A stretch of DNA of 37,767 bases from Gammaproteobacteria bacterium (GTDB lineage: Bacteria > Pseudomonadota > Gammaproteobacteria > Arenicellales > UBA868): positions 1 to 37,767 of the forward strand of contig JAKUQR010000027.1 in NCBI GenBank assembly GCA_022450155.1. Direction: 5' to 3'. Numbering within the stretch: the first letter of the stretch is position 1; the number at the start of each line of letters is the position of its first letter. The notes beneath the pieces are model-generated. The model had not been told where the DNA came from and ran no database searches. It saw nothing but the letters and a program-made list of their open reading frames with translations. This document shows positions 8,237 to 9,589 of this stretch, piece by piece. A program made the translations under genes and the position numbers.

Positions 8237-8628
8237 GGGAGTCGGCCGGGCGATCGCGGCCGCGTGACTGCAGCCACCGGAACACGGTGTTTAGCGGTGC
8301 GTGGCGGAGGAAAGTCCGGGCTCCACAGGGCAGGGTGCCAGATAACGTCTGGACGGCGCGAGTCGATGGACAGTGCCACAGAAAATATACCGCCTGCTCG
8401 GCAGGTGAATACCTGTTGAGCGGTAAGGGTGAAATGGTGCGGTAAGAGCGCACCGCGTTGGTGGCAACACGAACGGCAGGGTAAACCCCACCTGGAGCAA
8501 GACCAAATAGGAATCCAATGGTGTGGCCCGCATCGGATTCGGGTAGGTCGCTAGAGTTACATGGTGACGTGTGACCGAGATGAATGGTCGCCCTCGACAG
8601 AACCCGGCTTACAGGCCGGCTCCCCACC
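8237..8628 (+). ncRNA. rnpB: RNase P RNA (bacterial type A)
   Basis: This is the catalytic RNA that trims the 5-prime leaders of tRNA precursors. Conserved blocks are present: GGAGGAAAGTCCGGGCTCC (8306-8324), AGGGCAGGGTGCCAG, GGTAAGGGTGAAA followed by GGTGCGGTAAGAGCGCACCG, and ACAGAACCCGGCTTA (8597-8611). The ends close as helix P1: GGGAGTCGGCC (8237-8247) pairs with GGCCGGCTCCC (8614-8624), with one G-U pair. The length of about 390 bases fits type A. The position between rsmI and mraZ is the same as in Pseudomonas. The exact 3-prime end is estimated from P1. Confidence 0.97.
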
Positions 8629-8638
8629 CCCGCCCACC

Positions 8639-8660
8639 GGGCCTGTAGGCCTTGTTTTTA
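8639..8660 (+). terminator. Rho-independent terminator of rnpB
   Basis: GGGCC, a TGTA loop and GGCCT form a short GC-rich stem ending at 8652. The T-rich tract TTGTTTTT (8652-8659) follows at once. It lies about 10 bases past the end of the RNase P RNA. Confidence 0.65.
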
Positions 8661-8851
8661 CCGTCTAACGGGCCATCTGTCGTAGTTATACAACACTGAC
8701 GGACTGACAGCTGGCGTCGGTACTCGGTCACCCACGGGTGGCCACTGCTGAATTCGCGGTCGTCGACAGTGCCCAATCAGCGATAAGCCCATGATTTTTT
8801 TGAATTACGGGGGGTTGACAGGTCGTGATATTGATGCCAGAGTGTCGATTA

Positions 8852-8877
8852 GTGGGTAATTGTGGTGAAAAAGGTAA
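8852..8877 (+). promoter_or_regulatory. Putative MraZ-binding repeats
   Basis: GTGG occurs at 8852-8855 and 8862-8865, with a weaker AAGG at 8871-8874, giving a 10-base period (TGGGT, five bases, TGGTG, five bases, GGTAA). MraZ is known to repress its own operon by binding TGGG-type repeats separated by five-base spacers. Spacing fits well; only the first repeat matches fully. A TTGACA follows at 8881-8886. Confidence 0.45.
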
Positions 8878-9012
8878 AAATTGACAAAGAATCGTGGGTT
8901 ATTCAGCAGAACTTGCGGGCTACGGGCCGACCAATCCCGGTACCCTGATTACCCCGACCAGTTTGCCGTGGATGGCGGCATATCCATCCATCCTCATCCT
9001 CCTTTGGTGATT

Positions 9013-9046
9013 GCCCGGCCCCTTTTGGGGTCGGGCGTTCTTTATT
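9013..9046 (+). terminator. Strong terminator-like hairpin upstream of mraZ (possible attenuator)
   Basis: GCCCGGCCCC (9013-9022), loop TTTT and GGGGTCGGGC (9027-9036) pair over 10 bases with one G-U, followed by GTTCTTTATT. It could stop read-through from rnpB, end a small RNA, or act as an attenuator of the dcw operon if transcription starts near 8815-8890. An upstream CCCGACC (8953-8959) can pair with GGTCGGG (9029-9035) in its 3-prime arm, which would break the terminator. Confidence 0.7.
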
Positions 9047-9130
9047 GCACGGTAAGCGCCAATTGATTAATTGACCAGTGGACCAGACCAGCGGCTTGGG
9101 TTTGAAGTAAAGGCTAAGGTAGAAGACGAC

Positions 9131-9589
9131 ATGTTTCGTGGTGCAAGCTCCCTCAACATGGATCAAAAAGGACGGTTTGCCGTCCCCGCGAAATACCGTC
9201 AGGTACTTACTGAGCGCTGTGATGGTCAGTTCGTGCTGACGGTTAACAACACCGGGGAACGCTGTCTCTGGTTGTATCCCCAGGATGAGTGGGAGCAGAT
9301 CGAAAGAAAGGTCGTCGAGTTACCCAGTTTCGATCCGTTAGCACAGGCGTTGAAGCGGCTTTTGATCGGCTATGCCACGGATTGTGATCTTTCAAGCGGG
9401 GGACGGATACGCGTCTCCGCGCCATTAAGGGAATTTGCAGGTCTAGAAAAACACATTGTATTGATCGGACAGGGAAATAAGTTTGAGATCTGGGATGAAG
9501 GCCTTTGGAAAGTGAAGTGCGATGAATGGCTGTTGAAGCAGCCCGAGGATCGGCAGCTTCCCATTGAGCTTGAGTCGCTCTCGCTCTAG
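9131..9589 (+). CDS. mraZ: Transcriptional regulator MraZ
   Basis: MraZ is an AbrB-like, ring-forming DNA-binding protein that represses the dcw operon. The 152-residue protein has the two tandem SpoVT/AbrB-type halves, each with a DxxxR-type motif: DQKGR at residues 11-15 and a second GRIRVSAPLREFA element near 87-99. The start is the ATG at 9131 (MFRGASSLNMD); an in-frame start at 9071 would add residues foreign to the family. It is the first gene of the dcw block, 15 bases ahead of rsmH. Putative binding repeats lie at 8852-8877, unusually far (about 270 bases) upstream, with a terminator hairpin between. Confidence 0.96.
   Translation: MFRGASSLNMDQKGRFAVPAKYRQVLTERCDGQFVLTVNNTGERCLWLYPQDEWEQIERKVVELPSFDPLAQALKRLLIGYATDCDLSSGGRIRVSAPLREFAGLEKHIVLIGQGNKFEIWDEGLWKVKCDEWLLKQPEDRQLPIELESLSL

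Follow-up and report, generated by a model that had tools for sequence, protein, structure and literature searches.

How is an essential division and cell-wall (dcw) operon transcribed when an intrinsic terminator stands between its only recognised promoter and its first gene, mraZ? The question is raised by the window, the whole stretch of 37,767 nucleotides that was analysed, which is one contig from a draft genome of 3.2 Mb and carries, in this order, an rsmI-like gene (named from PF00590 and an RsmI_C match under the cut-off), rnpB, a stretch of 503 nt, mraZ, rsmH/mraW, ftsL and an ftsI-like gene (Table 1). The ATG of mraZ at 9131 was picked by agreement with relatives; the open frame extends back to a TTG at 9071. 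After rnpB there is a short hairpin that resembles a terminator and has a run of T (GGGCCTGTAGGCCTTGTTTTTA, 8628-8660), thus rnpB and mra transcription look separate. We read the window's family as uncultured marine bacteria from isolate names such as REDSEA and ALOHA, and the relatives with the same element are metagenome assemblies of draft quality. Our answer, which we hold to be fairly probable, is that 8815-9046 forms a long 5' leader of the dcw operon containing a 5'UTR-derived small RNA (sRNA) directed against ribosome-binding sites (anti-RBS), and that the operon is fed by read-through.

Table 1. Coordinates of the features discussed, in the window unless another contig is given
Feature	Position	Strand	Basis
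rnpB, RNase P RNA class A, upstream neighbour	8238..8627	+	RF00010, 328 bits
P_mra promoter	8815..8843	+	-35 TTGACA 8815-8820, -10 CAGAGT 8838-8843
Putative leader sRNA, terminated transcript of ~197 nt	8850..9046	+	start inferred from -10; promoter and terminator
MraZ-type repeats, 10-nt period, just 3' of -10	8852..8876	.	GTGG pair in 29/30 leaders
Possible distal MraZ-type repeat GTGGGT, 42 nt past the first	8894..8899	.	alignment of 30 leaders
Hairpin GGAUGG/CCAUCC, possible H-type pseudoknot with GCCG/CGGC	8965..8989	+	30 rows, 9 distinct
CU-rich linker AUCCUCAUCCUCCUUUGGUGAUU, Shine-Dalgarno-complementary, presumed seed	8990..9012	+	mean identity 0.95
Intrinsic terminator	9013..9046	+	arms 9013-9022, 9027-9036; interrupted U tract 9037-9046
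mraZ, first dcw gene	9131..9589	+	PF02381
rsmH/mraW	from 9605	+	PF01795
ftsL	from 10546	+	PF04999
ftsI-like gene	from 10812	+	PF00905
Free-standing copy in the window's genome	L213 1501-1561 = G000:C22:22771-22831	-	R2

The starting point of the leader is P_mra. We compared the window with 29 relatives of its family (30 leaders, six genera), obtained by an MraZ protein search of 100 genomes that include the window's own; mraZ was found in 94 genomes, the 30 top-scoring loci are those of the window and these relatives, and 3 of the 33 family genomes gave no mraZ match. Since several lineages are represented by near-identical sequences, counts of leaders are not counts of independent events. In the alignment, the -35 TTGACA is found in 30/30 leaders, the -10 reads TATAGT in 25, CATAGT in one and CAGAGT in four of the window's genus, and the spacer between them is 17 or 18 nt. 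A consensus scan that demands 9 of 12 positions is passed at P_mra by 26 of the 30 leaders; the window's own copy fails. An earlier note on this DNA had pointed to two TTGACA hexamers, and both are present, at 8815-8820 and 8881-8886; the former belongs to the promoter, but the latter is not conserved, reading TTGGCA or TTGGTA in the three same-genus relatives, and was rejected as a promoter.

The repeats with a 10-base period, likened before to a MraZ box, are indeed there as GTGGG at 8852, GTGGT at 8862 and a weaker AAGGT at 8871. In the whole window, GTGG-N6-GTGG occurs once on the forward strand, at 8852, and twice on the reverse strand, so that its occurrence at the promoter is above chance, and the 10-nt spaced pair stands at P_mra throughout the family leaders save one, shifted by one repeat in L007 and L010. 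The distal repeat reads GTGAGT in the three same-genus relatives. MraZ repeats of Burkholderia and E. coli are described with the same placement relative to the -10 (PMC7761207).

Downstream of the repeats, the strong terminator hairpin reported 85 nt before the mraZ ATG was found as described, with GCCCGGCCCC-TTTT-GGGGTCGGGC at 9013-9036 and the tail GTTCTTTATT to 9046; a fold of 9005-9052 around it gives -26.6 kcal/mol (z -4.3). The hairpin belongs to a conserved stretch of 79 nt (8965-9043) consisting of a small hairpin or pseudoknot, the CU-rich linker and the terminator, and the most conserved part of the leader, 8965-9012, was absent from the earlier description. The layout in the family is TTGACA, -10, GTGG-type repeats, a variable stretch, the element, the linker, a G+C-rich hairpin with a U-rich tail, and mraZ. 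Identity to the window base averages 0.95 over the linker, 0.88 over the element and 0.79 over the terminator, against 0.35 over the variable stretch (8900-8964) and 0.37 over the spacer that precedes mraZ; a conservation peak in linker and hairpin, with low values in the variable stretch and the spacer, is what a seed-bearing RNA shows.

Both hairpins keep their pairing. A covariation check had been proposed for the terminator helix, and this helix is kept in relatives with compensatory changes: over hairpin 1 and the terminator in 25 aligned members (19 distinct), 285/285 cells are standard pairs and three pairs changed on both sides, and slid controls drop to 27-67%. The cells paired, the double-change cells and the covariation score are above shuffles (of 500, 0 or 6 reach the observed value), whereas the number of double-change pairs and the number of pair types, for both hairpins, are not. 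The hairpin of the element, GGRUGG/CCAYCC, is paired in 100% of cells over the 30 members (9 distinct), and one pair compensates A-U/G-C. The consensus of the element over the 30 leaders is GCCG[UC]GG[AG]UGGCGGC..AUCCA[UC]C, and GCCG-U-GGAUGG-CGGC-AUAU-CCAUCC is proportioned like a minimal H-type pseudoknot, with stems of 4 and 6 and loops of 1, 0 and 4. The element could form one if the invariant GCCG and CGGC, which flank and enter the hairpin, pair with each other; because neither ever varies, the alignment is uninformative on this pairing.

This arrangement is confined to one family among the leaders examined. The module, element plus terminator, lies between P_mra and mraZ in 30/30 family leaders, and a model of free-standing sRNA-like loci (R2, described below) finds it at E<=0.1 in 0/119 other gammaproteobacterial mraZ leaders, 59 from the class and 60 at order level, a few of the latter incomplete at contig ends. 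A terminator stands between the repeats and mraZ in all 29 family leaders with a box pair (L009 has no pair by the pattern used), in none of the 50 pair-bearing loci (of 60) in the order's other families and, counted from the last pair with a looser pattern, in none of the 58 pair-bearing loci (of 59) in the class's other families. For the class set, gene starts were taken as the outermost PF02381 match, and a 60th locus, L300, whose position was guessed, was dropped. That MraZ boxes usually sit near mraZ, as the earlier note stated, agrees with the comparison loci: the pair is <=126 nt from mraZ in 49/49 order loci (search reach ~220 nt) and <=97 nt in 53/58 class loci (last pair, looser pattern). 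In the window it begins 279 nt upstream of mraZ, since the sRNA module intervenes. Considering that the other families have repeat pairs with neither a terminator nor an R2 match, the ancestral promoter and repeats seem to have kept their position as some 200 nt entered between them and mraZ.

The layout supports the view that transcription from the promoter in the box region has to cross the terminator before it reaches mraZ. Between terminator and mraZ, a consensus promoter was found in 0/30 leaders by a scan that can miss non-consensus promoters, and together with the position of the operator relative to mraZ this points to an operon that depends on read-through. It is conceivable, instead, that there are two units: an independent sRNA gene captured P_mra, and mraZ is served by an unrecognised promoter of its own in 9047-9130 or by other transcription. 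A standard score rates the terminator as strong, which would suit two units, and consensus scans do miss non-standard promoters, that of the window at P_mra included. However, the spacer 9047-9130 is poorly conserved, varies between 57 and 133 nt in the 30 leaders and yields no consensus promoter in any of them, and the ancestral mraZ promoter with its MraZ repeats still lies 5' of the terminator. We regard two separate units as very unlikely. The earlier note had offered an independent small RNA as one option; a small RNA does fit best, but not one independent of the operon.

A second possibility is that the leader controls termination in cis. CCCGACC (8953-8959), GGTCGGG (9029-9035) and CCGACC (8927-8932) all occur at the positions reported, and the first two are complementary in the window; the pairing is not conserved, however. 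Among 29 of the 30 leaders, each taken against its own arm (L008 was missed by the pattern), CCCGACC fits the 3' arm in the window only. The leader/3'-arm duplex of the window is equalled by 21% of dinucleotide and 15% of mononucleotide shuffles, and over the 30 leaders only L003 falls under 5% of mononucleotide shuffles (4%). The mutually exclusive antiterminator proposed from these heptamers thus found no support in the relatives, and an antiterminator through the 3' arm was rejected. For the variable leader with the 5' arm, 6/30 leaders lie at or below 5% of mononucleotide shuffles, the window at 3%. In an alignment by eye, GGGCCG (8924-8929) can pair with CGGCCC (9016-9021) of the terminator 5' arm; in the three same-genus relatives this helix is kept with a compensatory change in L004 and broken in L003 and L005. 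There may be a lineage-specific antiterminator through the 5' arm.

A pure cis attenuator would go further: an element bound by a ligand, a protein or an RNA, or an alternative helix, would set termination versus dcw expression, and the short RNA would be a by-product. It would account for a terminator between the sole recognised promoter and an essential operon, and for a nearly invariant 25-nt element that fits an H-type pseudoknot; the six leaders with 5'-arm pairing, the window included, and the helix compensated in one of three relatives also speak for it. On the other side, that helix is broken in the other two, 24/30 leaders show no 5'-arm excess (related sequences, so that these counts are not independent), 3'-arm pairing is above shuffles in a single leader, and the element with either terminator arm does better than shuffles in 0/30. 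The linker, moreover, is more conserved than the hairpin and is common to free-standing loci away from mraZ. We consider a pure cis attenuator unlikely. The linker paired with mraZ's own ribosome-binding site in cis is no better than with shuffled sites in 28/30 leaders (L009 and L027 at 5%); its mean pairing energy is lower in the family, -13.5 versus -9.9 kcal/mol in 60 order-level loci (P 8e-5), a difference that base composition could explain.

Attenuation by a leader peptide, in which a ribosome on an upstream ORF that reaches the element or the terminator permits read-through, has its own evidence. In 30/30 leaders the frame through PW[MV]AA or variants of it has no stop over at least the 23 codons that precede the element, the product of the shuffle probabilities is 3.5e-4 over 10 chosen representatives, an in-frame ATG stands at -72 to -84 in 13 of the 18 g4 leaders, pN is below pS in four of seven clades, and weak translation of a small ORF is described at the UpsM terminator of R. 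sphaeroides (PMC5089854). Yet the pooled pN/pS in that frame is 1.07 and lower in the other two (0.38 and 0.63), over seven clades with 25 of the 30 leaders (L006, L013, L015, L024 and L030 left out), which makes a conserved peptide unlikely. In 18/30 leaders, frame 1 has no stops either; stop positions vary relative to the terminator, the only start in the window is a GTG that lacks a clear Shine-Dalgarno sequence, and the compensatory change of the element is non-synonymous on both sides (codons read by eye). This form of attenuation is, in our judgement, very unlikely.

The favoured reading, a leader sRNA with read-through, draws further on kinship with loci elsewhere. R1, a covariance model from 25 family leaders, recovers the five left-out leaders at E 1e-18 to 1e-23 and gives weaker matches outside the window's family (109 order, 369 class and 299 phylum genomes searched); at 1e-4, 6/299 phylum genomes match, the window's genome among them. 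These outside matches are a mixture, one being SorX and others resembling ordinary terminators. The core CAUCCUCCUUUGGUG or a one-base variant is present in 11/20 order-level and 19/29 class-level R1 loci that were fetched, and outside the family it usually reads CUCCUCCAUCCUCCUUUGGUGGUUU ahead of the terminator. We call such loci free-standing when mraZ is missing from their flanks: within ~1.5 kb, there is none at the 29 class-level loci and none at 13 further loci, and the 20 order-level loci were judged away from mraZ by contig and position only. Of 37 free-standing loci with long flanks, 25 lie outside any frame of at least 150 codons and 12 overlap one on either strand; the loci are likely intergenic. 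The SorX match is L301, a member of that Rhodobacter sRNA family (RF02784, 77 bits) with CCAUCCUCCC ahead of its terminator. Two loci of the window's family on other contigs, L062 and L064, look sRNA-like, with a TTGACA promoter and AUAUCCUCCUCCUU ahead of a terminator, and L064 also has a match to mmgR (RF00519) below threshold. The 24-nt element pattern has one exact match in a Spirochaetales assembly (L146 5068-5091), possibly by chance, with no mraZ within the 8 kb of that locus. Viral contigs gave no match.

R2 was built from 27 free-standing sRNA-like loci, none of them from the window's family; its hit in the window spans 8986-9042 (38.3 bits, E 5.7e-9 in a search of 136 kb), and it recovers 30/30 leaders, 27 at E <2e-8 and three of genus g6 at ~3e-5. 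E-values of both models are rough, and the kinship search is partly circular because the R2 seeds were gathered with R1; they were also chosen by a pattern that requires the core and at least six T. At E<=1e-6, R2 has matches in 117 of the 369 gammaproteobacterial genomes, among them the window's. In that genome it hits two places, the leader and, at E 6.3e-15, a free-standing copy that lies on a different contig. By eye, the latter lies between ORFs that resemble a glycolate oxidase iron-sulphur subunit and ribosomal protein L13, and it is overlapped by an 80-aa frame on the other strand. Free-standing loci (L173-L201, L233-L240 and others) carry a nearly invariant CUCCUCCAUCCUCCUUUGGUGGUUU followed by the terminator. 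The window copy shares with the free-standing type a core AUCCUCCUUUGGUG directly before an intrinsic terminator, but it sits in an mraZ leader and not in a transcription unit of its own. Because the core common to both types is an anti-Shine-Dalgarno sequence, unrelated RNAs could have converged on it.

The two types also differ at their ends. The U tract of leader terminators is mostly interrupted (TTCTTT type), whereas free-standing copies end in 5-9 consecutive T. The T-score is 2.38 for the window terminator versus 4.70 in free-standing copies, and the leader hairpins are stronger; this comparison covers 10 free-standing copies of the window's family and 27 others, of which L173 was mis-parsed and many were found with U-rich models. 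Since the combined terminator score is about equal (10.5 for the window, 11.3 for its genome's own free-standing copy), we did not conclude from the U tract alone that the leader terminator is leaky.

No Rfam family reaches its gathering threshold in the leader; leads below the threshold are VrrA, AgvB, RF02278 and ncS16. For RF02278 the window copy scores 16.6 bits and free-standing gammaproteobacterial copies up to 46.7, the best in 40 scanned loci, against a gathering threshold of 50. The free-standing loci are possibly a widespread anti-RBS sRNA family that is not captured at the Rfam cut-off.

The comparison shows a promoter, MraZ-type repeats, a conserved RNA element, a terminator, no further consensus promoter, restriction to one family among the leaders examined and similarity to free-standing sRNA-like loci, and from these we infer the following order of events. 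RNA polymerase would start at P_mra, at about 8850, and MraZ would repress this promoter through the repeats just 3' of the -10. Most transcripts would end at 9046 and give an sRNA of ~197 nt, whose conserved 3' part would represent the anti-RBS, double-hairpin type of sRNA; its conservation in the manner of a seed, its terminator and its likeness to stand-alone sRNA-like loci all point to a short RNA as the product. The sRNA, uncut or trimmed to ~80 nt, would pair by its linker with the ribosome-binding sites of other mRNAs, probably with the assistance of Hfq, whose gene is encoded in the window's genome. Polymerases that cross 9046 would make the dcw mRNA; the sRNA and the division genes would then share one MraZ-controlled promoter, and a single promoter probably serves a regulatory RNA as well as the division genes.

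A bolder extension is that one gammaproteobacterial family acquired a mobile anti-RBS sRNA module by insertion between the MraZ operator and mraZ, independently of UpsM (see below), with a compact pseudoknot as a 5' processing or switch element, so that MraZ would govern division-gene transcription and also how much of a trans-acting translation repressor is made. We offer this tentatively and think it rather doubtful. If it were true, it would mean a built-in link from the division operon to global translation or metabolism. The favoured reading itself would place a widespread anti-RBS sRNA type under a defined regulator, MraZ.

In the open literature searched for previous accounts of this leader or of its core sequence, only UpsM and the RF02278/S17 sRNAs were relevant. 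Several known systems share parts of the design. First, as at the canonical mraZ promoter of E. coli and B. cenocepacia, where the repeats are described directly 3' of the -10 and overlap the likely start (PMC7761207), the window has its repeats at the promoter; unlike there, they are far from mraZ with an sRNA module in between. Second, SreA and SreB of Listeria are riboswitch-derived, trans-acting sRNAs (as described in PMC5089854), and for the window, too, we propose that a 5' leader ended by a terminator has a further, trans-acting role; unlike theirs, the window's leader has no known ligand or aptamer. Third, the 'toxic' sRNAs of Burkholderia (RF02278) are described as a double hairpin with a CU-rich stretch complementary to ribosome-binding sites (PMC5688073), and S17 of Bordetella, related to RF02278, as repressing translation via sites near ribosome-binding sites and as being processed by RNase E into a form of 67 nt (PMC11722255). 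The window likewise has two hairpins around a CU-rich stretch complementary to ribosome-binding sites and, like S17 as described, unpaired sites of this kind plus a terminator. The RF02278 type is also defined by repression of mRNAs at the ribosome-binding site and by growth inhibition on overexpression, and in the accounts cited RF02278 and S17 are presented as sRNAs in their own right and not as parts of dcw leaders.

The closest parallel in layout is UpsM, a 5'UTR-derived sRNA of the dcw operon of Rhodobacter sphaeroides (PMC5089854). There, read-through of the terminator is given as about 1 in 100 events, and experiments are reported to show no promoter nearer mraZ (PMC5089854); StsR, which binds UpsM and the 5'UTR of dcw, thereby influences expression of the division genes (PMC8307010). 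Like UpsM, the window has a long mraZ 5'UTR with an intrinsic terminator, a predicted short RNA of ~200 nt and a possible small ORF across the terminator; a separate promoter closer to mraZ was not seen in 30 leaders by the consensus scan, which can miss non-consensus promoters. The two differ in that the window's family belongs to the Gammaproteobacteria and UpsM to the Alphaproteobacteria, the likeness being one of layout, and in that the window's element resembles free-standing anti-RBS sRNA-like loci. Such dcw leaders were stated to be exclusive to Rhodobacteraceae (PMC5089854); at the level of sequence anatomy, the window's family contradicts this. A whole family that would route dcw transcription through an sRNA terminator provides a second case beside UpsM and suggests that the coupling of an sRNA to division-gene transcription arose more than once, and with two presumably unrelated systems to compare, the question of multiple origins becomes testable.
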